The position numbers were made by a program, and so were the translations under genes. Below, one piece after another: positions 6,388 to 45,777 of a DNA stretch of 64,000 nucleotides; position 1 is the first letter of the stretch; every line of letters starts with the position of its first letter. This DNA is from Alcaligenaceae bacterium (GTDB lineage: Bacteria > Pseudomonadota > Gammaproteobacteria > Burkholderiales > Burkholderiaceae_B): positions 1 through 64,000 of the forward strand of contig JACCEP010000005.1 in the NCBI GenBank assembly GCA_013416395.1, given 5' to 3'. The notes under the pieces were generated by a model. It was not told where the DNA came from and searched no databases. It saw nothing but the letters and a program-made list of their open reading frames with translations.

Positions 6388-7706
6388 GGTCAGGATCAAC
6401 GCTGGATTTGCCGCGCGTTACGTCGGCGGCGGGGCGTTTGCGCCTGCCGGGTTCCAAGAGCATTTCAAATAGGGCCTTGTTGCTCGCGGCGTTGGCCGAT
6501 GGGCAGACAGATCTGGAAGGCATGCTCGACTCTGATGACACACATGTCATGATTGCGGCACTACGCCAGCTAGGGGTCGATATTGACGAAACGCAGCCAG
6601 GCCATTTGCGTGTGCACGGAGGCTATCCCTTCCCTGTAACGGAAGCCAGTTTGTTTTTGGGCAACGCCGGCACGGCCTTTCGGCCTCTGACCGCAGCGCT
6701 TGCCGTCATGGGCGGGCAATATCATCTTTCAGGCGTACCGCGCATGCATGAGCGGCCAATAGGCGACCTGGTCGATGCGCTTAAAACGCTTGGTGCCGAA
6801 ATTCACTATTTGGGCGAACAGGGCTACCCGCCACTCCGCATAGGGCGGGGAGTCATTCAGGCGAACCGTACTGTCAAAATAAAAGCGTCGGTGTCCAGCC
6901 AGTTTCTTACGGCGCTGCTCATGGCCGCGCCATTATGTGCGGCATCCTCCTCTTCAGGGGTGCGCATTGAGGTAGACGGTGATCTCATATCAAAGCCGTA
7001 TATCCTCATTACTCTCGGGCTGATGGAGCAGTTTGGTGTGTGCGTTGAACGTGATGGTTGGCAGAGCTTTACCATACCGGCCGGGGCCCGCTATCGTTCG
7101 CCCGGTCGTGTGGCTATAGAGGGTGATGCCTCAACGGCGTCTTACTTCATGGCGCTGGGGGCCTTGGGTGGTGGGCCCGTGTTTATCGACGGCGTTGGCA
7201 CAGACAGCATGCAGGGCGATATCGCCTTTGCCGACGTGGTGCAAGACATGGGTGCAGTCGTCGTGCGTACACCGACAAGCATAGAAGTCAGCGGCCCTCG
7301 CGTTGCACAGGGCCAGCGGCTGAAGGCTTTTGACCGCGACTTCAACCTTATTCCTGATGCTGCCATGACTGCGGCGGCCATGGCCATGTTTGCTGATGGG
7401 CCCTGCACATTGCGAAATATAGGCAGCTGGCGCGTCAAAGAGACTGACCGTATTCACGCCATGCATACCGAGCTTGAAAAACTTGGTGCGCGCGTAGAAT
7501 CGGGCCCTGACTGGCTTACGGTGCATCCTGTGCAGTCAGCAGACTGGCGACCGGCATCGATTGGCACCTACGATGACCACCGGATGGCTATGTGTTTTTC
7601 GCTGGCCGCTTTTAGTCCGGTTGCCGTTACCATCGAAGATCCTGATTGCGTCAGTAAAACGTTTCCGGCCTATTTTTCTATTTTTAATCAGCTGGTTCAC
7701 GCATGA
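6384..7706 (+). CDS. aroA: EPSP synthase (3-phosphoshikimate 1-carboxyvinyltransferase)
   Basis: Sixth step of the shikimate pathway, joining shikimate 3-phosphate and PEP to give EPSP. The protein has 440 aa, slightly above the usual 427-430. Class I signatures are visible: [17 protein letters not shown] near residue 22, the PEP/glyphosate loop [15 protein letters not shown] near residue 91, [10 protein letters not shown], and the catalytic-region segment [15 protein letters not shown] plus KETDR. In the glyphosate loop, Phe replaces the Met of the E. coli enzyme; the Thr and Pro known for resistance mutations are retained. It starts inside the tyrA stop (ATGA at 6384) and ends in another ATGA overlap with cmk at 7703. 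Confidence 0.97.
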
Positions 7707-8386
7707 GCTTCTCTACATTGACCATTCCGGTTATCGCTATAGATGGTCCCACTGCGTCGGGCAAAGGAACGATTGCGCATCGCGTGGCGCAGGCACTGGG
7801 GTGGTCAGTACTCGACAGTGGCGCGCTCTATCGGCTAACTGCGCTGGCGTTGCTGCAGCAGGATGCCGATGCGGCCGATGAAAATGCCGTGGCAGACATC
7901 GCTCAGGCGCTCGATGTCAGGTTTGATGGTGATCAGGTGTGGCTGAACGGCAACGATGTTGCTGCTGAAATTCGCCTTGAAGATGTGGGCAATCTTGCCT
8001 CACGCATTGCTGCTTATCCTGCTGTAAGGCAGGCATTGCTTGAGCGCCAGCGCGCATTTCGAACCGCTCCCGGCCTGGTTGCCGATGGGCGTGATATGGG
8101 CACTGTGGTTTTTCCTGATGCCCCGCTAAAGGTTTTTTTGGTGGCAGACGTAGCCGCACGTGCCGAAAGGCGTTGTAAGCAGTTGAAGGTAAAGGGCTTT
8201 TCTGCTAATCTAGCAGACTTGCTAAAAGACATGCGTTCTCGCGATGAGCGTGACCGCACTCGGGCTAATGCTCCGCTGGTTGCGGCGGCTGATGCCATAA
8301 CGGTTGATTCGTCTACGTTAACCATAGACGAAACCGTACAGCAAGTACTCGACCTTTGGTCGGGCTTGGGTTTCCCTAAAGCATAG
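7703..8386 (+). CDS. cmk: Cytidylate kinase
   Basis: Phosphorylates CMP and dCMP using ATP in pyrimidine nucleotide recycling. The 227-aa protein has the P-loop [11 protein letters not shown] at residues 13-23, the CMP-binding DSGALYR segment, the [11 protein letters not shown] motif and the lid [10 protein letters not shown], all typical of bacterial CMP kinase. It is the last gene of the overlapping run (aroA overlap of four bases) and is followed by a 97-base leader and rpsA, the usual cmk-rpsA order in proteobacteria. No intrinsic terminator separates it from rpsA, so read-through is likely. Confidence 0.97.
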
Positions 8387-8483
8387 CTGGCGCTATGTTC
8401 GGGAAAATTTTTCTCACTCCACTGGGGCGGTTTATCGACCCTGGTGCGTTATTTAATGGCCATCCTGGCCAATGGATTAATTA
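8387..8483 (+). promoter_or_regulatory. Leader of rpsA with hairpin and weak ribosome binding site
   Basis: The 97 bases between cmk and rpsA contain a short hairpin, GGCCA-TCC-TGGCC, at 8458-8470, just before a start region that lacks a strong Shine-Dalgarno (only GGA in AATGGATT). In gamma-proteobacteria rpsA has a structured, SD-poor initiation region through which S1 represses its own synthesis. The layout here is consistent with that, but this is inference. Confidence 0.4.
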
Positions 8484-10199
8484 ATGTCCACTACTGCAAC
8501 CCCTGTCGCCACTGGCGGCGAAAGCTTTGCCGACCTGTTTGCCGAAAGCATCAAAAGCCAAGACATGAAGTCTGGCGAGGTCATTTCTGCTGAAGTCGTA
8601 CGCATTGACCACAACTTTGTTGTTGTCAACGCTGGCCTGAAGTCTGAGGCACTGATCCCTATTGAAGAGTTCCTGAACGATCAGGGCGAACTCGAAGTTC
8701 AAGACGGCGACTTTGTATCGGTAGCAATTGACTCGCTCGAAAACGGCTACGGCGACACCATTCTGTCACGTGACCGCGCCAAGCGTCTTTCCGCATGGCT
8801 GTCGCTCGAGCAGGCGCTCGAGTCTGGCGAACTGGTCACCGGCACCATCACCGGCAAAGTAAAGGGCGGCCTCACGGTCATGACCAACGGCATCCGCGCA
8901 TTCTTGCCCGGCTCGCTGGTCGATCTGCGTCCGGTCAAAGACACGACGCCGTACGAAGGTAAAACCGTAGAATTCAAGGTTATCAAGCTTGACCGCAAGC
9001 GCAACAACGTTGTGCTGTCGCGTCGTGCTGTGCTCGAAGCCAGCATGGGCGAAGAGCGTGAAAAGCTGCTCGAAACCCTGCACGAAGGTGCTGTGGTCAA
9101 GGGTATCGTCAAAAACATCACCGACTACGGCGCGTTTGTCGACCTGGGCGGTATCGATGGCTTGCTGCACATCACCGACATGGCATGGCGTCGCGTGCGT
9201 CATCCTTCCGAAGTCCTGCAGGTGGGCCAAGAAGTTGAAGCCAAGGTCCTCAAGTTCGACCAAGAAAAATGCCGCGTGTCGCTTGGCGTCAAGCAGCTTG
9301 GCGAAGATCCCTGGATCGGCCTTGCTCGCCGCTACCCGCAAGGCACCCGCCTGTTCGGCAAGGTTACCAACCTTACTGACTACGGTGCGTTTGTCGAGGT
9401 CGAGGCTGGCATCGAAGGTCTGGTTCACGTCTCCGAAATGGACTGGACCAACAAAAACGTCGACCCACGCAAGGTAGTTACCTTGGGTGAAGAAGTCGAA
9501 GTCATGGTTCTCGAAATTGACGAAGATCGTCGTCGCATCTCGCTGGGCATGAAGCAGTGCCGCCAAAACCCATGGGAAGAGTTCTCCATGAACTTCAAGC
9601 GTGGTGACAAGGTGCACGGTGCCATCAAGTCAATCACTGACTTTGGTGTGTTCGTGGGTCTGCCTGGTGGCATTGATGGCCTGGTTCATCTGTCCGATCT
9701 GTCATGGGCTGAAACCGGTGAAGAGGCTGTTCGCAACTTCAAGAAGGGCGACGAAATTGACGCCGTCGTTCTGGGTATCGACACTGACAAAGAGCGCATC
9801 TCGCTGGGTATCAAACAGCTTGAAGGCGATCCTTTCAACAACTTCGTTGCAACCTACGAGAAAGGCGCTGTTGTACCTGGCGTGGTCAAGTCGGTTGAAG
9901 CCAAGGGTGCTGTCGTTACCTTGTCGCTCGATGTCGAAGGCTATCTTCGTGCTTCCGAAATCTCGGCTGGCCGTGTAGAAGATGCCACCACCGCCATCAA
10001 TGTCGGTGACAACGTCGAAGCCATGATCATCAACGTTGACCGCAAAACGCGTTCGATACAGTTGTCGATCAAGGCACGCGATAACGCTGAAACAGCTGAC
10101 TCCATCCAGCGTATGTCTGATGCAAGCGCTTCGTCGGGCACCACTAATCTTGGGGCCCTGCTTAAAGCCAAGCTTGACCAGCAACGCGACGACGGTTAA
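8484..10199 (+). CDS. rpsA: 30S ribosomal protein S1
   Basis: mRNA-binding ribosomal protein that unfolds structured leaders and allows initiation on weak ribosome binding sites. The protein has 571 aa, close to the 557 of E. coli, and six S1/OB repeats can be followed; the recurring pattern is G-x-F-V/DYGAFVxLxGxxGLxHxS, seen for example near residues 210, 297 and 384. The N-terminal about 30 residues ([10 protein letters not shown]) form the ribosome-docking segment that contacts S2. A C-terminal linker rich in Ser, Ala and Gln ends the chain. It is followed after five bases by ihfB, the classical rpsA-ihfB pair. Confidence 0.98.
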
Positions 10200-34066: not shown

Positions 34067-35359
34067 ATGACCACCATCGCAGTTGAACAGGCTCAAGCTG
34101 CTGCAATCAAGCGCCAAGACTGGAAGATAATCAGTCTTATCGGAGCGGTGCATGCTTCATCGCACTTTTTTCAGTTGGTGCTGCCCACGCTTTATCTGTC
34201 TCTGGCGCATGAGTATGGCTACGACTTCGTCAAGCTCGGGCTACTGGCATCTGTGTTTTTCTTGGTATCTTGCCTGGGGCAGGCGTCTTCGGGATTTGTG
34301 GTTGACCGCATAGGGCCCGCTCCGGTGCTGCGTTTTGGGCTTAGCTGTTTTGTGGTGGCCGGTATTTTGATCGGGCTGTCCACGGGCTATGCCATGTTAA
34401 TGCTTGCCGCCGTTATAGGTGGCATCGGCAACTCCATCTTTCATCCCGTTGATTACTCCATTATCAATCATCGCGTCAGTGGCGAGCGCCTGGGGCATGC
34501 CTACAGTGCGCACGGTCTAACGGGTAACCTGGGCTGGGCGCTTACGCCGGTATTTATGGCGGCGCTTATCTACGCCGCCAATTGGCGGGTGGCTGCCTTT
34601 GGGGCTGCGGCTCTGGTTGGTTTTATTCTGTTTCTTACCTGGTTGGGCCGAGATCTTCTTGGGGGGCGCAACGAGGCGTTTACGCCACCGGCCGAAGATA
34701 ACGCGCAGAGCAGTGCCGCGCCAGACCTTGCGCGTCAGTCGGTAGGTCAGACCCTGGCAACCTTGCTGGTTCAGCCAGCGCTGTGGGGCGCTTTCCTGTT
34801 TTTTGCCTGTACATCCATTGCCTTGTCTGCGGTGCAGAACTACACCATTCCCATGCTGGGTGATGTCTATGGCATAGCCAAGGTCATGGCGGGCACAACG
34901 CTTTCAGCCTATATGGTTGCCGCAGCGGTAGGCATGGTGGCGGGGGGCTTTCTGGTAGGGACCACGCCCAATACAGAACGCACGGTATTTGTTTCTTTGC
35001 TGCTCGCGGGTGCGCTGCTGGTGGTTCTGGCGCTGGGTATGGTGCCGCCCATGTTTGCCATGGCTTTGGTGGCTTTGGCAGGGTTTTGCTCGGGAGTGTC
35101 CGCCCCGTCGCGTGACATGCTGATCCGGCGTGTTACGCCTAAAGGGGCAACCGGTACAGTGTATGGGCTGGTGTACTCTGGCATGGACGTGGGTTCGTCG
35201 CTGGCACCCGTGAGTTTTGGGCTGCTGCTTGACGCCGGCTTTGGTCGCGGGCCCTGGTATGGCGCGGCCATTGCTTTTGCTGCAGCGGCCTTTCTTGCGG
35301 TGGGTGTTGCCAAGGCAGCAGGCAAATCTGTACCGGTGATGCAACGCGCGCGCGCCTGA
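34067..35359 (+). CDS. MFS transporter, fosmidomycin-resistance (Fsr)-like
   Basis: Twelve-helix major facilitator of 430 aa. The segment SFFQL-type opening (HASSHFFQLVLPTLYLSLAH), GGIGNSIFHPVDYSIINHR and SAHGLTGNLGWALTP match the Fsr-like efflux group; a soluble central loop lies at about residues 200-225 and the second half carries GFCSGVSAPSRDMLIRR. Fsr in E. coli exports fosmidomycin, but the real substrate of most relatives is not known. Start ATG 34067, 21 bases after pgsA, so it may belong to the same transcript. It ends four bases from the convergent queF stop. Confidence 0.85.
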   Translation: MTTIAVEQAQAAAIKRQDWKIISLIGAVHASSHFFQLVLPTLYLSLAHEYGYDFVKLGLLASVFFLVSCLGQASSGFVVDRIGPAPVLRFGLSCFVVAGILIGLSTGYAMLMLAAVIGGIGNSIFHPVDYSIINHRVSGERLGHAYSAHGLTGNLGWALTPVFMAALIYAANWRVAAFGAAALVGFILFLTWLGRDLLGGRNEAFTPPAEDNAQSSAAPDLARQSVGQTLATLLVQPALWGAFLFFACTSIALSAVQNYTIPMLGDVYGIAKVMAGTTLSAYMVAAAVGMVAGGFLVGTTPNTERTVFVSLLLAGALLVVLALGMVPPMFAMALVALAGFCSGVSAPSRDMLIRRVTPKGATGTVYGLVYSGMDVGSSLAPVSFGLLLDAGFGRGPWYGAAIAFAAAAFLAVGVAKAAGKSVPVMQRARA

Positions 35360-35363
35360 CTGC

Positions 35364-36188
35364 TTATTGTCGTATCGTGCGTGCTGGCTGGGGTTGCGCC
35401 GGTTCGCTGCTGCGCCAGGGGTTGATGTCAAGCCCGCCGCGTCGGGTGTAACAGGCGCGCACAAACAAGGCTTGGGGTGCGCAGGCTGCCCAAATATCAC
35501 AAAACATTTTTTCTACGCAATGTTCATGAAACTCTGTATGGCGGCGTAGCGAAACAATGTACGCGAGCAACGCTTCGCGATTGATTTGCGGCCCCGTATA
35601 CCTAACTTGTACGCTGCCCCAGTCCGGCTGCCCGGTTACCGGGCAGTTTGATTTAAGCAAATCAGACACGAGTATTTCAGTAACAACGCTTGCGTTGGCA
35701 AGGCAGGCGAGTAGCCCGGGCATGGGTGAATAGTGTTGAATATCAATATCAGCGGCGTCGATATTTATACCCTCAAGTGGCTGACACTGTTGCCGATCAT
35801 GGCCAGTAAGTGGCTCGAGATGTATCTTTACCTGTTCGCCCGTAGCCTTTTCAAGATCGCGGTGCATGATCGCACTGATAGCGGCTGCATCGACGTAGCG
35901 CTCTTCGCTGAATGAGTTCAGGTAAAGCTTGAAAGACTTGGATTCCACCAAGTTGGGGCTGGAGTGCGGAAAGATAAACTGACCCACGGCTACGATGGGC
36001 TTGCCTCGAGGCGTTAGCCAGGAGAGCTCGTAGGCATTCCAGATGTCGGCACCGAACCAGTTTTCAGGTGTGGCTAGGGTATTGCGATTAGTGGATCGTG
36101 GAATGGGAAAGAGTAATAAAGGGTCGTATGCCTGCGGAAATACGACATCATGCCCGAGCGGGGCATGTTCGAGCATGTTTTCTTGCAT
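35364..36188 (-). CDS. queF: NADPH-dependent 7-cyano-7-deazaguanine reductase
   Basis: Reduces preQ0 to preQ1 in queuosine synthesis. The 274-aa protein is the long, two-module (E. coli YqgS-type) QueF: NADPH/substrate motif NLVESKSFKLYLNSF in the first module, catalytic C182 in LLKSNCPVTGQPDWGS (thioimide former) with the partner Asp 7 residues later, and HEHCVEKMFCDIW in the second. The frame is open to 36272, but homologues start close to the PLGHDV region, so ATG at 36188 (MQENMLEHAPLG) is preferred, with ATG 36176 as an alternative. It is divergent from aceA across an AT-rich control region. queH at 48784 is another gene of the same pathway. Confidence 0.93.
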   Translation of the reverse strand: MQENMLEHAPLGHDVVFPQAYDPLLLFPIPRSTNRNTLATPENWFGADIWNAYELSWLTPRGKPIVAVGQFIFPHSSPNLVESKSFKLYLNSFSEERYVDAAAISAIMHRDLEKATGEQVKIHLEPLTGHDRQQCQPLEGINIDAADIDIQHYSPMPGLLACLANASVVTEILVSDLLKSNCPVTGQPDWGSVQVRYTGPQINREALLAYIVSLRRHTEFHEHCVEKMFCDIWAACAPQALFVRACYTRRGGLDINPWRSSEPAQPQPARTIRQ

Positions 36189-36505
36189 GATAAAAACGAA
36201 TGTATAAGGTGGCGGCGAGATGCCAATGTACGAAGCCTGATTTGATTGTACCTTGAAGCCCTCTTTTTTCACGCTATGAAATGCTCACTTCATAATGCGA
36301 AATGCTCTCGCTGCATTGCACGAATTTTCATTTCATAAAAGAAGAAAGCATTTCACAATACAAAATAAGAACGACAAGTTATTGATTTTTATTGGTAAAA
36401 TTTTCTGTCTTATATAAGACATAAGTGTTAGGTGCAGCGCAGCAACAGCGTACACTTTGTTCATGGATTACCCCTTTATTTCTTTGTCTATTTAAGGATG
36501 TCATC
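36189..36505 (+). promoter_or_regulatory. AT-rich divergent control region queF / aceA with symmetric GAAATGC boxes
   Basis: No gene lies here. Between 36275 and 36356 are two GAAATGC boxes in direct orientation (36278-36284, 36299-36305; 21 bases apart) and two inverted boxes, TCATTTC (36328-36334) and GCATTTC (36348-36354; 20 bases apart). The first forms part of a dyad TATGAA-N8-TTCATA (36275-36294). Such spacing fits a dimeric or tetrameric repressor binding one DNA face. The stretch to 36420 is very AT-rich (TATATAAG at 36411) and probably holds the aceA promoter. Confidence 0.55.
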
Positions 36506-37813
36506 ATGAGCACTCGAGAAAACGAAATACGCGCTTTGCAACGTACATGGGCAGAAGACCCACGCTGGCAAGGCATCAAGCGTGGCTACGGTGCAGAAGA
36601 AGTCGTGCGCCTTCGCGGTTCAATCACGGTTGAACACACGCTTGCCCGTCGTGGTGCAGAAAAGCTCTGGGATCTGCTGCACACCGAGCCTTTCGTCAAC
36701 TCGTTGGGTGCGCTCACGGGCAACCAGGCCATGCAGCAAGTCAAGGCGGGTTTGAAGGCTATTTATCTTTCAGGCTGGCAGGTAGCTGGCGACGCCAATA
36801 TTGTCGGTGAAATGTACCCCGATCAGTCGTTGTACCCCGCCAACTCGGTGCCTCTGGTGGTGCGTCGCATTAACAATTCGCTTACCCGATGCGACCAGAT
36901 TCAGTGGATGGAAGGCAAAAATCCTGGGGACGAGGGCTATATCGATTACTTCGCGCCCATTATTGCAGACGCCGAAGCAGGGTTTGGTGGTGTTCTAAAT
37001 GCTTTCGAGCTGATGAAATCCATGATTGATGCGGGTGCCGCTGGCGTTCACTTTGAGGATCAGCTGGCCTCCGTGAAGAAGTGCGGTCATATGGGTGGCA
37101 AAGTGCTCGTGCCTACTCGTGATGCCGTGGCTAAGCTGGTGGCTGCCCGTCTGGCTGCTGACGTACAAGGCGTTTCTACATTGCTGCTGGCCCGCACGGA
37201 CGCAGATGCGGCTGACCTCATTACCAGCGACATGGACCCTAATGATCAGCCGTTTGTAACCGGTGAACGCACTGCTGAAGGCTTTTTCCGTACACGTCCC
37301 GGTATTGATCAGGCGATTTCGCGTGGTCTGGCTTATGCACCATATGCCGATCTGATCTGGTGCGAAACGTCCACGCCTAATCTTGAGTACGCCAAGAAGT
37401 TTGCCGATGCAATCCATCGCCAGTTCCCAGGCAAAATGCTGGCCTACAACTGCTCGCCTTCCTTTAACTGGAAGAAAAACGTTGACGACGCCACGATTGC
37501 GAAATTCCAGCGCGAACTCGGTGCCATGGGTTACAAATATCAGTTCATCACACTGGCAGGCTTCCATGCACTGAACTACGGCATGTTCGAGCTGGCGCAT
37601 GGCTACGCCCGTAATCAGATGAGCGCTTTTGTTGAACTGCAACAGAAAGAGTTCGCGGCGGCCGATCTTGGCTTTACCGCTGTTAAGCATCAGCGCGAAG
37701 TGGGTACCGGTTATTTTGACGCTGTTACTCAGACTATCGAAGGCGGCCAGTCGTCGACTACGGCACTGACAGGCTCGACGGAAGAAGAGCAGTTTGAATC
37801 AGCCGCGGTCTGA
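36506..37813 (+). CDS. aceA: Isocitrate lyase
   Basis: First enzyme of the glyoxylate bypass, splitting isocitrate to glyoxylate and succinate; needed for growth on acetate or fatty acids. The 435-aa protein has the catalytic cysteine C193 in the signature KKCGHMGGK, the metal-binding VHFEDQ and ADAEAGFGG segments, and a flexible C-terminal Ser/Thr-rich tail. AAGGA eight bases before ATG 36506 fixes the start. Malate synthase is not in the window. The upstream AT-rich region with repeated GAAATGC boxes suggests dedicated regulation, in line with an acetate-responsive repressor, but the regulator is unknown. Confidence 0.97.
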
Positions 37814-38052: not shown

Positions 38053-38066
38053 TTGATCTAAATCAA
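38053..38066 (+). promoter_or_regulatory. Perfect FNR (Anr) box
   Basis: TTGATCTAAATCAA matches TTGAT-N4-ATCAA in every position. It is flanked by two direct copies of ACACCCGGG (38042-38050 and 38066-38074). Its centre is 41.5 bases from base 38101, the class II activation distance if transcription starts just before the ATG at 38102. The fnr gene itself is at 44915-45643. Confidence 0.92.
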
Positions 38067-38101: not shown

Positions 38102-39067
38102 ATGCGCGCCTATTCAATTTTTTCTACGCCTCAAGGGCTGTCCGACGACGATCGCCTCGCGCGACGTCGCATGCTGGCACGTATGGGTCTTGGCTGGTTG
38201 GCCATGATGCAGGTGATGATGTTCGCGTTTCCGGGGTATTTGCGGTCTGAAAGCATGGCGCCCGACAACCTTGCGCTCCTGGATGATGCCATTGTCATGA
38301 TGAATTGGATCAGCCTGGTCATTACGGCTCCCATTATTCTGTATTGCGCAATCCCTGTGTGGCAGGGTGCACTGACACAACTGCGCCGCGGTCGGGTAGG
38401 CATGGACGTGCCCGTAGCCCTCAGCATTGTTGCGGCATTTGTGCCGAGTGTGTATACGACGTGGACGGGGCGCGGTGAGGTCTATTTTGATTCGGCCACC
38501 ATGTTCGTAGCGTTTCTGCTTACCGCTCGTTATCTTGAATTATGCGCACGCCAATCTATTGATGCTGGCGCCAACCATCAGTTGGTCGAACAGTTCAGAA
38601 AGTCGATCTCGGGGCATGCCAACACGCTTGCGTTCTGGTTTGTTGTTATTCAGCTTGCGTTAGCATTTATTGCTGGAGCAACGTGGTACATGCATGCGCC
38701 TGAACGTGCCATCGGCATCATGGTGGCGTTACTGGTCATGAGCTGCCCGTGCGCCATGGCCATGTCTGTGCCCACCGCTACGGCAGCGGCGCATGCCTGT
38801 CTGTCTTCCCAGCCATTGCGCGCCGATGCTGACGTGCAATGCCTCATACAGTCCACAGACCGGGTTGCCCGCCAGAATCTTTATGGTTCCATTGTCTGGC
38901 ACCTGCTCATGACGCCGCTGGCAGCCATAGGGCTTGTGCAGCCCTGGCTTGCTGCCATCAGCATGCTTCTATCGTCGCTGGCCGTTGCAGGCAACTCCTG
39001 GCGGTTGTATCGCCGTCACACGCATTCTGCAGCGGGTGGTTGGCAGGGGGCGCCGGCACAGGGCTGA
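38102..39067 (+). CDS. CcoI-like membrane protein lacking the ATPase catalytic domains
   Basis: A 321-aa protein clearly derived from the copper P1B-type ATPase CcoI/FixI. It keeps the CcoI hallmark AMMQVMMFAFPGY, GRVGMDVPVALSI, GRGEVYFDSATMF and FLLTARYLEL, the copper-binding CPC at 215-217 (MSCPCAMAMSVPTATAAAH), and the final helix pair (RQNLYGSIVWHLLMTPLAAI; PWLAAISMLLSSLAV). Eight helices can be placed near 26-44, 64-86, 103-121, 131-149, 176-195, 203-222, 258-277 and 279-299. Missing are the N-terminal metal-binding domain, the actuator domain (only about 23 residues at 150-173) and the whole phosphorylation and nucleotide domain with DKTGT (only about 30 residues at 226-256). It cannot hydrolyse ATP in the usual way. 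It lies in the normal CcoI place, three bases before ccoS, under the FNR box. Normal length is about 750-830 aa. Confidence 0.85.
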   Translation: MRAYSIFSTPQGLSDDDRLARRRMLARMGLGWLAMMQVMMFAFPGYLRSESMAPDNLALLDDAIVMMNWISLVITAPIILYCAIPVWQGALTQLRRGRVGMDVPVALSIVAAFVPSVYTTWTGRGEVYFDSATMFVAFLLTARYLELCARQSIDAGANHQLVEQFRKSISGHANTLAFWFVVIQLALAFIAGATWYMHAPERAIGIMVALLVMSCPCAMAMSVPTATAAAHACLSSQPLRADADVQCLIQSTDRVARQNLYGSIVWHLLMTPLAAIGLVQPWLAAISMLLSSLAVAGNSWRLYRRHTHSAAGGWQGAPAQG

Positions 39068-39070
39068 TCT

Positions 39071-39262
39071 ATGTCTTCTCTGTTTTTGCTGCTTCCTATC
39101 TCTCTTTTGCTGGTCATCGCAATTGGCGCTGCATTCTGGTGGGCTATTTTTGCCGGCCAGTTTGATGATGCAGGATCGGTCGGAGATTTGATACTGGAAG
39201 ACGATGACCGAACGGCACCGACGGTGCCTGAGCCGACGGACTCGGCCAGGCCCGGAAGCTGA
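39071..39262 (+). CDS. ccoS: cbb3 oxidase assembly protein CcoS
   Basis: Small membrane protein of 63 aa needed for cofactor insertion (heme b and CuB) into CcoN. It has one transmembrane helix (residues 2-28, LFLLLPISLLLVIAIGAAFW) followed by the family motif GQFDDAGSVGDLILEDDD and a Pro/Thr-rich tail. ATG 39071 lies three bases after the CcoI-like stop, so both are in one transcript. ccoI-ccoS adjacency is usual for the assembly operon, and here it directly precedes the structural genes. Confidence 0.92.
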   Translation: MSSLFLLLPISLLLVIAIGAAFWWAIFAGQFDDAGSVGDLILEDDDRTAPTVPEPTDSARPGS

Positions 39263-39331: not shown

Positions 39332-40816
39332 ATGGGCACTTTCGATACTGCGGGGAAGCAGGTCGAAGTCTTCAATTATGGGGTGGTCAGACAGTTCTCG
39401 ATCGCCACCATATTTTGGGGTGTTATCGGCATGGCGGTGGGCGTATTAATCGCTGCACAGCTTATTTGGCCTGAGCTTAATTTTGAAACGCCTTGGCTGA
39501 GCTATGGGCGCCTGCGGCCATTGCACACCAACGCTGTTATTTTTGCGTTTGGTGGTAATGCGTTGTTTGCAACGTCGTACTACGTGGTGCAACGTACCTG
39601 TCAAGTGCGTTTGTTCAGCGACAAATTGTCGGCATTTACCTTTTGGGGCTGGCAATTGGCGTTGGTGGCAGCGGTCATCACGCTGCCCATGGGCTTTACA
39701 AGCACCAAAGAATACGCAGAGCTCGAGTGGCCAATTGATATTCTGATTGCGCTGGTCTGGATTGTGTATGCCATCGTTTTCTTCGGCACGATCGCCAAGC
39801 GGCGCGTCAAGCATATTTATGTGGCCAACTGGTTTTTTGGTTCGTATATTTTGACGATTGCCGTGCTGCATATTTTCAATAACCTGGAAATCCCTGTCGG
39901 TTGGTTCAAGTCATACTCCATATACAGTGGCGTGCAAGATGCCATGGTGCAGTGGTGGTACGGTCATAACGCGGTGGGTTTCTTCTTGACCACCAGCTTT
40001 CTGGGCATGATGTATTACTTTGTGCCCAAGCAGGCCGAGCGTCCTATTTACTCGTATCGTTTGTCAATTGTTCACTTCTGGGCGCTGGCGTTTACCTACA
40101 TGTGGGCTGGCCCGCACCATCTTTTGTACACCTCATTGCCTGACTGGACACAGTCGCTGGGCATGGCGCTGTCGCTTATTCTTCTTGCACCTTCGTGGGG
40201 CGGCATGATCAACGGGGTTATGACGATGTCAGGCGCCTGGCACAAGTTGCGCACTGACCCCATTCTGAAGTTCATGGTGGTGTCGCTTTCGTTTTACGGT
40301 ATGTCCACTTTTGAAGGGTCGATGATGTCGATCCGTACGGTTAATGCCTTATCGCACTACACCGATTGGACCGTGGGTCACGTGCACTCGGGAGCGCTGG
40401 GCTGGGTGGCCATGATTACCTTTGGTTCGCTCTATTACCTGATTCCGCGACTGTATGGCCGTACACAAATGGCCAATATGCGTCTGGTCGATCTGCATTT
40501 CTGGATTGCCACGCTGGGCGTGGTGCTCTATATCGCTTCGATGTGGATTGCCGGTGTCATGCAAGGTTTGATGTGGCGCGCCACCGAGGCAGACGGCACC
40601 CTCACCTACAGCTTTGTTGAAGCCGTGAAGGCAACCTATCCGTTCTACGTAATTCGGCTTGCTGGCGGGTTGATGTTCCTGTCGGGCATGTGCGTGATGG
40701 CGTGGAATACCTGGATTACCGTGCGTGGCCAGACCAGGGTGAATCCTGAAGTGCCTTTGTTCAGCCCTGACGCGATTGATCCCGCGTTGCGCCGCCCGAT
40801 CATGGCTACAGCTTGA
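39332..40816 (+). CDS. ccoN: Cytochrome c oxidase cbb3-type subunit I
   Basis: Catalytic heme-copper subunit of the high-affinity cbb3 terminal oxidase. The 494-aa, twelve-helix protein has the low-spin heme ligand His in [18 protein letters not shown], the CuB ligand region [13 protein letters not shown] and [13 protein letters not shown], and the high-spin heme ligand region [16 protein letters not shown] precedes ATG 39332. The 69-base gap after ccoS is AT-rich and contains one half-site TTGAT (39287-39291) but no full FNR box, so expression probably comes from the promoter at 38089. Confidence 0.98.
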
Positions 40817-40830
40817 GGAGAGCCTGAATT

Positions 40831-41487
40831 ATGTCTAAGAAGTCTAGCGGTTTTTCGCACAAGCTGATTGAAACCAACGTCGGTCTGCTCATTATTTTGA
40901 GCATTCTGGTGATTTCTTTCGCAGGGCTGGTCCAGATCGTGCCGCTGTTTTTCCAGCATTCGATGACCACGCCCACAGAGGGTGTCAAACCTTACGAAGC
41001 CTTGAGGCTGGTGGGGCGTGATATCTATATACGTGAAGGTTGCGTTGGCTGTCACTCGCAGCAAATTCGCATGCTTAGCCACGAAGTGCAGCGTTATGGC
41101 CCTTACTCACTGGCTGGCGAATCCAGCTACGAGTTCCCATTTTTGTGGGGCTCCAAGCGCACCGGTCCCGATCTGGCGCGTGTGGGTCAGCGCTATTCAG
41201 ACGACTGGCACCGTCTGCACCTGCGTGATCCGCGCATGGTTGTAAAGGAGTCGAATATGCCTGCCTATCCCTGGCTGCAGCACAACACGGTAGAAGGCAC
41301 CGCCGTGCAAACACGCATGAGCAGATTGCGCATACTTGGTGTGCCCTATACCGACGAAGAAATTCAGGCAGCGCCCGAAGCGCTTAAAGACAAGACCGAA
41401 GAAGATGCCGTCGTGGCTTACCTGCAGGGGCTGGGCGTGGCGGGGCGTGAGGCCGCAGCCAAGGTTGTTTCGGAAGGGGTGCGCTAA
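40831..41487 (+). CDS. ccoO: Cytochrome c oxidase cbb3-type subunit II
   Basis: Membrane-anchored monoheme cytochrome c of the cbb3 oxidase, 218 aa. One N-terminal helix (residues 15-41) is followed by a periplasmic domain with the heme attachment motif CVGCH at 71-75 and the axial methionine in [10 protein letters not shown]. Typical segments [20 protein letters not shown] and [16 protein letters not shown] are present. GAGGAG upstream supports ATG 40831, and the stop is immediately followed by the ccoQ ATG. Confidence 0.98.
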
Positions 41488-41661
41488 ATGGCTGTCCTGA
41501 ATGCAATCGCGACGCTGCTTGCCATGATCACTTTTCTGGGGATTGTGTGGTGGGCATTCTCGAGAGGGCGTGCGGACGCGAATCGTGAGGCGGCCATGCT
41601 GCCCTTCGCGTTGCCTGACGAGCCCGTGATGAATAAGAAAGAAGGGATCAATCATGAATGA
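41488..41661 (+). CDS. ccoQ: Cytochrome c oxidase cbb3-type subunit CcoQ
   Basis: A 57-aa single-helix subunit that stabilises the cbb3 complex. The helix covers about residues 2-25 (LNAIATLLAMITFLGIVWWA), followed by the family-typical basic and Pro-containing tail (FSRGRADAN..., LPFALPDEP). It starts directly after the ccoO stop (TAA 41485-41487) and its last eight bases overlap the ccoP start (41654), so translation is coupled through all three genes. Position between ccoO and ccoP is decisive, as sequence conservation is low. Confidence 0.93.
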   Translation: MAVLNAIATLLAMITFLGIVWWAFSRGRADANREAAMLPFALPDEPVMNKKEGINHE

Positions 41662-42571
41662 ATTTGTGAGCAGCTTCTGGAGCTGGTTCATTGCGGCCAT
41701 TACGCTTGGCGGTATTGCCTTCTGTTTGTGGCTGTTGTATACGCAACGGGCATGGCTGGGCCGCCAGGTGCCAGCAGTCGAAGATACAGGCCATGTTTGG
41801 GACGGTGACCTGACTGAGCTCAATACGCCTGTACCACGCTGGTGGACGGTGTTTTACATTCTTTTGTGTGTGGCGGCCTTAGGTGTGCTGTTCTTGTACC
41901 CTGGGTTGGGTAGCTACGATGGCCTGTTGGGCTTTTCTGCAGCCAAAGAGGTCAAGCAGCACCAGGAGGCGCTCAGAGAGCGTATCGAGCCCCTGTACGC
42001 GGCCTACCGCGAAATGCCAATTACCGAAATTGCGCATGATGCTGAGGCGCGCCAAATTGGGCAAAGGCTGTTCTTGAACAACTGCGCACAATGCCACGGC
42101 TCAGACGCGCGCGGTGCCGGCAGTTTTCCTAACCTGACGGACGGCGACTGGCTATACGGTGGCGAGCCTGAAACCATTGTGCAGACGATTACCAAAGGCC
42201 GGCATGGCATCATGCCTCCATGGTCGGCACAGATCAGTGCAGCCGAAGCGTCCAACATTGCGCAATATGTACGGTCGCTCTCAGGGCTGGCGGCAGACCA
42301 GCTGAAAGTGGTGCCAGGCAAACGTGGTTTTGACACGTTTTGCGTGGCCTGCCACGGCGTCGAAGGTAAAGGCAACCACCTGGTGGGGGCCCCAAATCTG
42401 ACAGACAATGTGTGGCTGTACGGCAGCTCAGAGGCATCTATTGTTAAGACCATATTGAATGGACGTGAAAACATAATGCCTGCCCAGGAAGGCATTCTGA
42501 GTGAAGACCAGATCCGCATGCTTGCAGGTTGGGTGTGGGGTCTGTCGAATCCGGCATCCGCGGCGAAGTAA
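41654..42571 (+). CDS. ccoP: Cytochrome c oxidase cbb3-type subunit III (diheme cytochrome c)
   Basis: Diheme c-type subunit that receives electrons from soluble cytochrome c. The 305-aa protein has two membrane helices (about 8-30 and 63-82, the latter near the VFYILLCVAALGVLFLYPGL stretch) and two cytochrome c domains with CAQCH (144-148) and CVACH (230-234), each followed by a methionine ligand region (IMPPW; IMPAQ). DLTELNTPVPRWW is the family signature between the helices. It overlaps ccoQ by eight bases and precedes ccoG by 17. Confidence 0.98.
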   Translation: MNEFVSSFWSWFIAAITLGGIAFCLWLLYTQRAWLGRQVPAVEDTGHVWDGDLTELNTPVPRWWTVFYILLCVAALGVLFLYPGLGSYDGLLGFSAAKEVKQHQEALRERIEPLYAAYREMPITEIAHDAEARQIGQRLFLNNCAQCHGSDARGAGSFPNLTDGDWLYGGEPETIVQTITKGRHGIMPPWSAQISAAEASNIAQYVRSLSGLAADQLKVVPGKRGFDTFCVACHGVEGKGNHLVGAPNLTDNVWLYGSSEASIVKTILNGRENIMPAQEGILSEDQIRMLAGWVWGLSNPASAAK

Positions 42572-42588
42572 ACGCATAGAGGCATACC

Positions 42589-44094
42589 ATGAGCAGTAAA
42601 CCCACCGTAAGGCCCGCTGAACCCAAAGCGGATGCCCAGGCCACGCCGGCATGGCGTCCGCCACGTGTTGAAAAGGTCAACGGGGGTTCCTCTCCGCAAG
42701 TTGAGAAAGCGCTTGCCGATGTACGCAACAAGATCTACCCGCGTTCGGTCACGGGGATATTTGCGCGCTGGCGCATCGTCATGGTGTTTCTCACGCAGTT
42801 GGTGTTCTATGGCCTGCCGTGGCTGCAATACAATGGTCGCCAGGCCGTGCTGTTCGATCTTGGGGCGCGCAAGTTTTATATTTTTGGTATGGTCTTGTGG
42901 CCTCAAGACGTTATTTATCTGGCTGTATTGCTGGTTCTGTCAGCCTTTGCGCTGTTTCTGTTTACCGCCATAGCCGGGCGCCTCTTCTGTGGTTATGCCT
43001 GTCCACAGACGGTTTATACCGAAATTTTCATGTGGGTCGAGCGCCGCATTGAAGGCGACAGACTGGCCCGTATTCGTCTGGATGAGGCACCCTGGGGCTG
43101 GCGCAAGCTTCGTCTCAAGGCCACCAAGCATCTTGTCTGGATAGCCATTGCCTGGTGGACGGGGTCTACGTTTATTGGGTATTTTGCGCCAATTCGTGAG
43201 CTTGGCATGGGGTTGCTGCACTTTACCCTGGGGCCCTGGCAGTGGTTCTGGATGGTGTTTTATTCATTTGCCACCTGGGGCAACGCGGGCTTTATGCGCG
43301 AAGCCGTTTGTCAGTATATGTGCCCGTATGCCCGCTTCCAGAGCGTCATGGTCGACGACGATACGTTCGTAGTTACTTACGACCACGTCCGTGGCGAGCC
43401 GCGTGGCGGGCGGTCACGCCGTATTGACCACAAAGAAGCAGGTATGGGCGACTGCGTTGACTGCAGTCTCTGTGTGCAGGTGTGCCCCACGGGTATCGAT
43501 ATCCGCGATGGCCTGCAGTACATGTGCATAGGCTGCGGCGCCTGTGTCGATGCCTGTGATCAAGTCATGGAAAAAATGGATTACGCTCCGGGTTTGATTC
43601 GCTATACCTCGGGTAGGGCCATTACCGACGGGCTGTCGCAACCTCAGGCTCGCAAGCGTTTGTTCAGGCCGCGTGTGCTTATTTATTCTGCGATTCTGAC
43701 CCTGGTTGCCATAGGTTTCGTGGTTTCTCTGGTTACACGTACGACGCTACGAATGGATGTCATTCGAGACCGTGGTGCTCTCGGACGTGAAGTGGCTGGG
43801 GGCGTGATCGAGAACGTATTCCGTCTGCAGTTGATCAATACATCTGAATCACCGCTAACTCTGACGCTCAGTGTTGACGGCTTGCCGGGCTTGTCGGTAG
43901 CGACAGCAGATGAAAACACGGATGTTGTCGAGGTTCCGGCCGCCTCGAATCGACTGGTTCCCATTGTGGTGCGACTGCCGGCCAATAACGCCACGCCGGG
44001 GTTGCATAACATCGAAATCAAGTCGACTGGGCAGTACGATGATGGCAAGACAACCGTTGTTGCTGAAAAATCCAGCTATTTTGTACCAAATTAA
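42589..44094 (+). CDS. ccoG: cbb3 oxidase assembly ferredoxin-like protein CcoG
   Basis: Membrane-bound cupric reductase that helps deliver copper to the cbb3 oxidase. The 501-aa protein has a cytoplasmic N-terminus, transmembrane helices (about 63-81, 105-130, 183-205, 215-240, 365-385), the Cys segments FCGYACPQTVYTE and CQYMCPYARFQ, two 4Fe-4S clusters (CVDCSLCVQVCP and CIGCGACVDAC) and a C-terminal Ig-like domain (about 390-500). All cluster cysteines are present, so this member looks intact, unlike the CcoI-like gene. It is followed after 15 bases by the short ccoH. Confidence 0.95.
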   Translation: MSSKPTVRPAEPKADAQATPAWRPPRVEKVNGGSSPQVEKALADVRNKIYPRSVTGIFARWRIVMVFLTQLVFYGLPWLQYNGRQAVLFDLGARKFYIFGMVLWPQDVIYLAVLLVLSAFALFLFTAIAGRLFCGYACPQTVYTEIFMWVERRIEGDRLARIRLDEAPWGWRKLRLKATKHLVWIAIAWWTGSTFIGYFAPIRELGMGLLHFTLGPWQWFWMVFYSFATWGNAGFMREAVCQYMCPYARFQSVMVDDDTFVVTYDHVRGEPRGGRSRRIDHKEAGMGDCVDCSLCVQVCPTGIDIRDGLQYMCIGCGACVDACDQVMEKMDYAPGLIRYTSGRAITDGLSQPQARKRLFRPRVLIYSAILTLVAIGFVVSLVTRTTLRMDVIRDRGALGREVAGGVIENVFRLQLINTSESPLTLTLSVDGLPGLSVATADENTDVVEVPAASNRLVPIVVRLPANNATPGLHNIEIKSTGQYDDGKTTVVAEKSSYFVPN

Positions 44095-44109
44095 CAAGGG
44101 GGTATTGCC

Positions 44110-44439
44110 ATGTCTCGAGCGGCTCAGCAACATTCAGGCCTGACACAGCAGGCACGCAGCAAACAAGCGTTCACGGGTGTAGATCGTACGCCTGCTCCCA
44201 GACCCTGGTACAAAGAGCCGTGGCCCTGGATCATCATGGCAGGCCCGGCGTTGGCTATTGTTGCGTGTGCCATTACCATTGTGCTGGCCGTGCAAAATTT
44301 CTCTGATGTGGCCATTACCGATGGTGGCGTCAAGCGTGGTTTGGTGGTCGAACGAACCGACGCTACCAAGGCTGTTGGGGCCGAGTCGGAGCAGAAGGCC
44401 GCCTCACAGCAACAAGGGCCTGACGCTGCTGCCCGTTGA
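44110..44439 (+). CDS. ccoH: Short CcoH/FixH-like protein
   Basis: A 109-aa protein with the FixH-family membrane anchor: PWYKEPWPWIIMAGPALAIV followed by the rest of one helix (to about residue 63). Typical CcoH proteins have about 150-180 residues with a periplasmic FixH domain. Here only about 45 residues follow the helix (DVAITDGGVKRGLVVERT, then a Gln/Ala tail), so the domain is mostly missing. CcoH stabilises early assembly intermediates of cbb3 oxidase in other bacteria. GGGGG upstream marks ATG 44110. The family placement is based on the anchor motif and the operon position. Confidence 0.75.
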   Translation: MSRAAQQHSGLTQQARSKQAFTGVDRTPAPRPWYKEPWPWIIMAGPALAIVACAITIVLAVQNFSDVAITDGGVKRGLVVERTDATKAVGAESEQKAASQQQGPDAAAR

Positions 44440-44740: not shown

Positions 44741-44750
44741 AGGTATTGGA

Positions 44751-44910
44751 GCCTTGCCGCGTCCGAGGACGCAGGCAGCGCCTGGCCGTGTTCGAGGGCA
44801 CACTAGGCAAGAGCCTGGCAGTATTCGAGGGCCTCTATGCGACGGCCCAGCCGTGGTCAAGGGCCTCAGGCAAGAGCCCTGCCGTGTTTTAGATCACCAC
44901 AGGCAGCGCA
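44751..44910 (+). repeat. Five degenerate repeats of about 31 bp between the cco genes and fnr
   Basis: Units begin at about 44751, 44780, 44813, 44845 and 44876, with a core near GCCTGGCCGTGTTCGAGGGC and an end near AGGCAAGA or AGGCAGC. Units 2 and 3 are most alike. The block fills the gap between the convergent small gene (stop 44740) and fnr (stop 44915). Confidence 0.75.
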
Positions 44911-44914
44911 GAGC

Positions 44915-45643
44915 CTACCCGCAATCGTTTCCGGACAACTCCTGCAGAGTGCGCATGTCGAGTATATGCACCTCACGCTGCTGAACGCGGATCAGGCCTT
45001 CGCGCGCAAATCTCGAAAATAACCGGCTAATGGTTTCGAGTGTGAGACCCAGGTAATTGCCGATTTCTTCGCGGCTCATACGCAAAATAAATTCGACCGG
45101 TGAGTACCCCAATACCGCCAATCGTTGCGATAGGTTGACCAGAAATGCGGCCAGCCTTTGCTCAGACCGCAAAGCGCCCAAAGCCATGGCCAAGCGGTGT
45201 GATCGGTTGATTTCTTTGCTCATGAGGCGTCGGAACTGCGGCTGCAGGGAGGGTAATTTTTGCCCCAATATGTCCAGTTCATTCAGCGGTATGACACATA
45301 CCTCGCTGTCTTCAAGCGCAATTGCCTGGCATACGTGCGTGTTTTCAAGCAGGCCATCAAGCCCCACGATCTCGCCGGGCAGTAAAAAGCCCGTAATTTG
45401 CATGTGGCCTGATGCGTCTTCAAGCTGCGTCTTCAACGAGCCGAAACGCAGTCCGTATACGGCGTCAGTTTTGTCGCCCAGCTGGAACAATGCCTTGCCT
45501 TTCGGGATGCGTATGCGTTCCTGGACGAGTTCATCAAGTTGAGCTACCTCGTTGCGTGGCATGCCCAGTGGAAGGCATATCTCGCTGAGCATGCAGGTGG
45601 AGCAACGACTTGCTTCCGGTGTAAGGGTAATTCTTTTGGGCAT
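44915..45643 (-). CDS. fnr: FNR/Anr-type oxygen-sensing transcription regulator
   Basis: CRP/FNR-family regulator (242 aa) that carries a 4Fe-4S cluster when oxygen is low and then binds TTGAT-N4-ATCAA. The cluster ligands are C14, C17 and C23 (RCSTCMLSEICLPLG) and C105 (THVCQAIAL), the same pattern as E. coli FNR. The helix-turn-helix with SREEIGNYLGLTLETISRLF contains the E-x-x-S-R recognition residues. A perfect target box lies upstream of the cco cluster (38053) and a near-perfect one lies in its own upstream region (45760). It is convergent with the cco genes. Confidence 0.96.
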   Translation of the reverse strand: MPKRITLTPEASRCSTCMLSEICLPLGMPRNEVAQLDELVQERIRIPKGKALFQLGDKTDAVYGLRFGSLKTQLEDASGHMQITGFLLPGEIVGLDGLLENTHVCQAIALEDSEVCVIPLNELDILGQKLPSLQPQFRRLMSKEINRSHRLAMALGALRSEQRLAAFLVNLSQRLAVLGYSPVEFILRMSREEIGNYLGLTLETISRLFSRFAREGLIRVQQREVHILDMRTLQELSGNDCG

Positions 45644-45755: not shown

Positions 45756-45777
45756 ATACTTGAGATAGATCAAGTAT
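45756..45777. promoter_or_regulatory. FNR-like palindrome between fnr and clpB
   Basis: ATACTTGA-GATAGA-TCAAGTAT is a perfect 8-base inverted repeat with a six-base centre. Its inner part TTGAGATAGATCAA matches the FNR consensus in nine of ten positions. A -10-like TACAAT on the minus strand (45723-45718) is 45 bases away, so fnr autoregulation is plausible. It lies about 85 bases upstream of the clpB promoter. Confidence 0.6.

Follow-up and report, generated by a model that had tools for sequence, protein, structure and literature searches.

The open reading frame at positions 38102–39067 (+) of the window, the 64,000-nucleotide stretch of Alcaligenaceae contig JACCEP010000005.1 analyzed here, encodes a CcoI copper ATPase cut down to its membrane core. 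The frame is intact over 321 codons, and the product of this short ccoI is predicted to be an all-helical membrane core with, by homology to CopA, eight membrane helices. Short ccoI is under purifying selection, and the retention of an ATPase-less core beside a copper-needing oxidase suggests that copper is handed over and not pumped. With slightly better than even confidence, we read short CcoI as a relay or insertase for Cu(I) that works without ATP and would load CuB of CcoN, with export left to CopA.

Alignment of the window protein with full-length CcoI revealed three cuts, at which the N-terminal metal-binding, the actuator (A) and the phosphorylation/nucleotide (P/N) domains are missing. 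TIGR01511 matched the protein in three separate pieces (model positions 4–68, 179–243 and 483–541) and PF00122 by its end alone (positions 105–176 of 181, protein residues 163–232), and a DUF6688 match lay under its cut-off and was disregarded. A scan of GTDB genomes yielded 208 relatives, of which the best 80 were kept; these 80 all encode proteins of 309–330 residues with intact frames (80/80) and the CPC motif, and none of the 80 loci carries the DKTG phosphorylation motif. A family profile (A1) of 49 sequences, comprising the window protein and 48 of these 80, aligned with residues 34–137, 237–302 and 567–633 of the solved CopA structure 3j08, corresponding to its three membrane parts, and skipped its actuator and P/N domains. 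AlphaFold2 run on A1 gave an all-helical model with a mean pLDDT of 84.7 and a pTM of 0.77. The top eight Foldseek matches in the PDB were copper P1B ATPases (4bbj, 7r0g, 8q74 and others), with TM-scores by query length of 0.44–0.54 and rmsd values of 6–11 Å; with two matches alone at E 0.001 or better, the support from the fold comparison is modest.

The missing A domain maps from the alignment to about residues 152–172 (38555–38617, +), where the stretch from R143 to F180 spans 37–44 residues in 81 short proteins versus up to 145 in full-length CcoI. The P and N domains would have stood at about residues 232–252 (38795–38857, +), where C217 to L260 spans 42–44 residues versus up to 317. Likewise, 31–33 residues lead from the start to W32 in the 81 short proteins, compared with up to 305 in the full-length form, showing that the N-terminal CxxC metal-binding domain(s) are absent. 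There is no room for an actuator domain with its TGE motif, and these three letters occur anywhere in only 3 of 80 short proteins (L006, L048 and L081). With A and P/N sites this short throughout the 81 proteins, a frameshift cannot be concealing a domain. The first-pass annotation, made from the letters of the window, had already claimed a CcoI-like membrane domain without actuator and P/N domains and without a frameshift-hidden remainder, and had placed the CPC motif at about 38744 and the next helix near 38873; the intact frame, the pieces matched by the profiles, the 3j08 alignment and the site lengths bear out all of this. Beyond that annotation, the N-terminal metal-binding domains are also gone, and the 'YN' pair of helix M5 has become 'WH'.

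We then compared the copper-site residues of the 81 short sequences with 30 full-length CcoI rows (29 distinct, as L112 and L181 are one gene and both were kept; L111_full, with too few filled columns, was dropped from these counts and from the tree described below). The helix MA motif MMQVMM (residues 35–40; 38204–38221, +) is conserved in both forms and absent from the CopA of the window genome: M35, M36, Q37, M39 and M40 are found in 81/81 short sequences, and in the full-length rows M36, Q37 and M39 in 30/30, M40 in 28/30 and M35 in 24/30. The putative cytosolic entry Met, M101 (38402–38404, +), presumably the counterpart of LpCopA M148, is present in 81/81 short and 26/30 full-length sequences. 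The putative exit acid D130 (38489–38491, +), which we take to correspond to LpCopA E189, is Asp in 75 and Glu in 6 of the 81 short sequences and Asp in 30/30 full-length rows. The CPC copper site of helix M4 (C215-P216-C217; 38744–38752, +) is invariant in both sets (81/81 and 30/30), as is the M6 copper ligand region M288..S291-S292 (38963–38977, +), found in 81/81 short sequences and, at all three residues, in each of the full-length rows with letters at these positions (27 of the 30 rows).

The exception is helix M5, which begins near 38873 and in which W266-H267 (38897–38902, +) replaces the YN of copper ATPases. The first position is W in 78 and F in 3 short sequences and the second H in 81/81, versus Y in 29 and W in 1 followed by N in 30/30 full-length CcoI rows; the CopA of the window genome has Y and N. 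The Cu(I) P1B membrane site of the short form thus keeps CPC, M and S, with Y/N changed to W(F)/H. The Met, Cys, His, Asp and Glu positions invariant in all 81 sequences are M35, M36, M39, M40, M101, M134, C215, C217, H267 and M288. E146 is present in 73/81, and position 174 is D in 60 and N in 21; these two positions, which we take to be the counterparts of CopA's cytosolic-entry acids, are thus conserved less rigorously. W32, R48, L60, W87, Q184 and G262 are further changes fixed in the short clade. In published work, C, C and Y form Site I and N, M and S Site II of Caulobacter FixI (PMC12617631), and N, M and S form TM-MBS2 in Rhodobacter capsulatus (PMC8475189). Since the ligands are conserved and the one specific M5 switch falls on published copper-site residues, the site has been altered specifically, not eroded.

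The genomic setting is that of a cbb3 oxidase operon, as the first-pass annotation had stated in placing the gene before ccoS under an FNR box. The FNR-type box TTGATCTAAATCAA lies at 38053–38066 (+), its first base 49 nt before the ATG, and is the single exact match to TTGATNNNNATCAA in the window, where 0.06 would be expected. Of the 79 loci of short ccoI whose upstream DNA was long enough, 72 have TTGAN6TCAA within 300 bp upstream, starting 40–59 nt before the ATG, as compared with 193 of 4000 random 303-bp windows (4.8%). Downstream follow ccoS (39071–39262, +; PF03597 FixS), detected within 400 bp in 75/80 short loci, and ccoN (39332–40816, +; TIGR00780, E 6.2e-233), encoding the catalytic subunit of the cbb3 oxidase and presumed recipient of the copper (CuB), which is found on the same strand within 1.2 kb in 79/80. 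The operon continues with ccoO, ccoQ, ccoP, ccoG and ccoH (40831–44439, +; Pfam FixO, FixQ below cut-off, FixP_N, FixG_C and FixH), ccoG being present on 72/80 short loci. None of the eight other ORFs of the window operon that were run against Pfam showed an ATPase domain.

Across the window's GTDB family, a match to the A1 profile and ccoN agree in 259 of 268 genomes as tallied by eye (199 with both, 60 with neither). A profile match without ccoN was obtained for G318, G344, G363, G503 and G541; in G318 a contig end falls inside ccoN, and in G344 ccoN is split into several overlapping fragments, as frameshifts would produce. The reverse, ccoN without a profile match, was obtained for G390, G423, G457 and G459. 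Outside the operon, an MFS transporter and aceA-like genes occupy 34067–37813 of the window and also lie upstream of short ccoI in some relatives' loci. An imperfect tandem repeat (44749–44888; unit of 32–33 bp, 2.6–3.7 copies) separates the end of the cco operon from an fnr-like gene (44915–45643, −), about 117 bp upstream of which an FNR-like box, TTGAGATAGATCAA, is located at 45760–45773; its presence suggests that the fnr-like gene may regulate itself.

The short form is widespread within the family. The A1 profile matched 204 of the 268 family genomes at E 1e-15, and classification by E-value (short at 3.8e-60 or better, full-length at 3.8e-47 or worse) assigned 184 of them to the short form and 20 to full-length CcoI, the 184 being an E-value class in which open-frame lengths are known for part of the genomes. 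With 184 of 204 short by this measure, a deletion confined to a single strain can be discarded. The full-length class comprises G402, G403, G435, G444, G445, G446, G448, G474, G478–481, G484, G486, G487, G503, G504, G515, G517 and G528. Renewed searches of 19 of these 20 (all but G487) gave frames of 672–858 residues in 18, and in G517 a frame of 367 residues that is apparently ended by the contig edge. Among the 184, G363, G377, G533, G541 and G551 are fragmentary or unusual: G363, a MAG, has an internal gap within short ccoI, and the loci of G533 and G551 (L176 and L177) show an extended loop where the actuator once stood, with frames of 387 and 360 residues and without ATPase domains.

Beyond the family, the profile matched 203 of 300 genomes in an order-level sample, whose eight family members are all short and whose listed matches outside the family are long-framed or truncated, and 164 of 398 genomes in a phylum-level sample. 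Among the matches listed for these samples of 300 and 398 genomes, no short form was found outside the family. Eight out-of-family matches with frames of 332–637 residues were considered as short forms and rejected, seven being longer ATPases truncated at the edge of a contig, and G170 turned out to be a full-length CcoI split into two frames beside an N. The first-pass annotation had also raised a full CcoI or CopA elsewhere in the genome. The latter exists, as one of five other genes with PF00122 in the window genome is clearly CopA, but no second CcoI was found there at E 1e-15, the window gene being the single A1 match.

To quantify selection, dN/dS was calculated by the Nei–Gojobori method for 3240 pairs, 948 of which had dS values of 0.1–1.2, and 28 non-overlapping pairs were chosen from these, lowest dS first. 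The median for short ccoI was 0.117 over the 28 pairs (range 0.038–0.385) and 0.27 over all 948 (maximum 0.51), and the window compared with its 92% relative gave 0.060. These values are far from 1, and together with the single clade described below they support the earlier claim of a selected protein that no longer pumps with ATP. For the same pairs, dN/dS was 0.040 for ccoN, 0.078 for ccoO, 0.065 for ccoG and 0.045 for ccoS (24–27 pairs each), so that short ccoI evolves at 1.5–3 times their ratios. Across the 81 short sequences 59 residues are invariant. In one genome, G377, short ccoI (locus L174, 7590–9565) is broken at about residue 155 by an insert with a 332-residue ORF that looks like a transposase, and the ccoN match is much weaker than in its kin; because of the insert and the weak ccoN match, this operon may be decaying.

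The phylogeny of the membrane core was calculated from 240 membrane columns of 34 short and 30 full-length sequences, with three further P-type ATPases from the window genome serving as outgroup. All 34 sampled short forms fall into a single clade (100/100), whose stem measures 0.72 changes per column; a clade beside ccoS/ccoN in Alcaligenaceae was what the first-pass annotation had suggested looking for. This clade is nested among full-length CcoI (94/85 and 89/80), near G158, from another family, and genus g159 of the same family, in a tree whose inner branches have modest support and whose outgroup branches are long. The membrane core of the short form groups with CcoI, not with CopA. Judged as an enzyme, short CcoI fails three defining features of CcoI as a CopA2-type P1B ATPase; judged by descent it is a CcoI, both by this grouping and by its place in the cbb3 operon. 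Full-length ccoI directly precedes ccoS or ccoN in 11 of 15 neighborhoods; in L167, L169 and L183 it comes after ccoP or ccoG, and in L180 ccoS is present and ccoN was not seen. As the full-length gene mostly occupies the same slot, the loss of the domains most likely took place in situ, and most simply it occurred once, within Alcaligenaceae. G528 (genus g171) has a full-length CcoI beside ccoS-ccoN (L166, about 7428–9329), its branch in the tree being long and close to the short clade, and many other g171 genomes have the short form; the G528 gene represents either ancestral retention or replacement by transfer.

The strongest functional argument, albeit an indirect one, comes from short-form genomes with cbb3 as the only oxidase found. 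G507 and G508 (genus g167; 1.6 and 1.7 Mb, listed as 100% complete) each encode a single COX1-family protein, which is their ccoN product, and no cytochrome bd match was obtained in either. The DNA of G507 is that of the Taylorella asinigenitalis locus L067, to whose short CcoI that of G508 is 80% identical, and the Taylorella genome paper describes one terminal oxidase, cbb3 (PMC3250509). G510, G513 and G053 have ccoN, no bd and one COX1-family protein of about 750 residues, which from its length and score looks like a quinol NO reductase. With cbb3 the sole terminal oxidase found in G507 and G508, its maturation in these cells presumably does without a CcoI driven by ATP. The sole P-type-sized HAD match in each of these two genomes is one complete CopA-like ATPase; if they respire oxygen via cbb3, their CuB is loaded with the domainless CcoI and this ATPase alone.

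The short form resembles CcoI/FixI/CopA2-type P1B ATPases such as R. capsulatus CcoI in its operon slot by ccoS/ccoN, MMQVMM, CPC and M..SS, and differs from them in the loss of the N-terminal metal-binding, actuator, phosphorylation and nucleotide domains and in the M5 change from YN to W/F-H. With the CopA1-type Cu(I) exporter CopA it shares the CPC and M..SS membrane sites and the fold matches; unlike the short form, CopA is complete, has the M5 Y and N and has its own gene in that genome. MFS copper importers such as CcoA are likewise membrane proteins that serve cbb3 assembly without hydrolyzing ATP; they belong to another protein family (MFS), with motifs MxxxM and HxxxM, and are compared here purely as functional analogues. 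No published description of a domainless CcoI was found among the titles and abstract starts listed, and the term 'ccoi' is absent from the main text of PMC6769254, on beta-proteobacterial copper proteomes, and of PMC11257404.

In the literature, R. capsulatus CcoI is described as performing ATP-driven Cu(I) translocation, an export step, and CcoG as a cupric reductase assisting CcoI (PMC8267372). The published mutants disagree on rescue by copper, which bears on whether CcoI serves cbb3 through export or through the placing of copper in CcoN. Added copper failed to restore cbb3 in Caulobacter without FixI (PMC12617631), and in R. capsulatus without CcoI one assay showed a rise in activity from below 10% to about 30% that the other assays did not show (PMC8475189). 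In the Campylobacter ccoI mutant, added copper rescued oxidase activity partly and growth fully (PMC8267372), which fits plain export. The Caulobacter and R. capsulatus mutants suggest that CcoI does more than supply the periplasm with copper, and a copper-placing role beyond export would fit these two data sets better than that from Campylobacter. Since a CPC mutant of R. capsulatus CcoI loses both transport and cbb3 activity (PMC8475189), the two roles are unseparated in that organism. For Bordetella bronchiseptica, strong transcription of ccoN is reported, but attempts to obtain a strain relying on cco alone among its oxidases failed, for which the authors suggest too little translation, assembly or cofactors (PMC11257404); this result may weigh against a relay.

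Taking these data together, we propose that a former CcoI shed its N-terminal metal-binding, actuator and phosphorylation/nucleotide domains and that the remaining core was retained to bind Cu(I) in the membrane, without ATP, during maturation of the cbb3 oxidase. In the membrane, Cu(I) would be held by CPC, M288/S292 and the newly gained H267 and, together with CcoS and CcoG, would be handed, not pumped, to CuB in CcoN, and the energy-driven export of copper in the same cells would be the job of the separate full-length CopA. In this scheme we infer the binding of copper, the direction of transfer, the contact with CcoN and the independence from ATP supplied elsewhere. A bolder formulation, that a P-type ATPase lineage has become a Cu(I) insertase without ATPase activity, acting as a membrane chaperone whose CPC-His-Met site would deliver CuB straight into CcoN, is tentative, and we rate its chances at a little short of even. 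The relay or insertase ranks first among the readings, followed in order by a passive channel, a copper-free scaffold, a motor supplied in trans and an importer.

A passive Cu(I) channel or carrier, in which copper from cytosolic donors would follow the conserved path across the membrane with periplasmic binding or the membrane potential as the driving force, could draw on the entry Met, CPC, M..SS and exit acid all retained along that path and on ccoG, encoding a cupric reductase described as aiding CcoI, at 72/80 loci. We nevertheless consider it rather unlikely, as the alternating access of P-type ATPases is powered by precisely the lost domains, the new His may grip copper more tightly instead of passing it on, and free cytosolic Cu(I) is taken to be very low. 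Quite improbable is a structural assembly factor for CcoN that has no need of copper: the conserved operon position, the co-occurrence with ccoN and many invariant non-ligand residues (W32, P44, G45 and Y46) would suit such a scaffold, but the copper ligands rank with the most strictly conserved positions, and it is precisely in the metal site that N has become H.

The last of the three roles proposed in the first-pass annotation, a partner of a separate soluble domain, is the least likely of them (the others being channel and scaffold). In a version of this idea the membrane half would be powered in trans, with either CopA's soluble domains or a distinct ATPase protein as its motor; in its favor, 178 of the 184 short genomes have a full match to the Cu-ATPase family model TIGR01511 at E 1e-60. 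No such match was obtained in G364, G533, G538, G542, G549 and G550 (76–91% complete), so that a CopA partner is not seen everywhere. The five HAD matches of G508 include no solitary P-type phosphorylation domain, the four small ones lacking DKTG, the loops of 37–44 residues offer no evident docking platform, and we know of no domain sharing between P-type ATPase chains, all of which makes this arrangement very unlikely. Even less credit can be given to a copper importer that would draw on the periplasm to feed the cytosol or CcoN: although direction is no longer fixed without ATP, the full-length R. capsulatus relative is described as translocating Cu(I) outward with ATP. The notion of a relic in decay that will soon be lost, at which the ccoI insertion and weaker ccoN match in G377 and the internal gap in G363 might hint, is at odds, family-wide, with the 28-pair median dN/dS, the 59 invariant residues and the 80/80 intact frames.

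To our knowledge, a P-type ATPase that has lost all of its catalytic domains and is still under selection is an unusual case. The 184 genomes with the membrane core only beside cbb3, two of them with no other oxidase found, constitute a natural separation of the two roles considered for CcoI, export and the placing of copper in CcoN, and make the question testable through one small gene. If short CcoI is indeed an insertase, the essential act of CcoI would be the hand-over of copper within the membrane, and ATP-driven export would be a separable extra.
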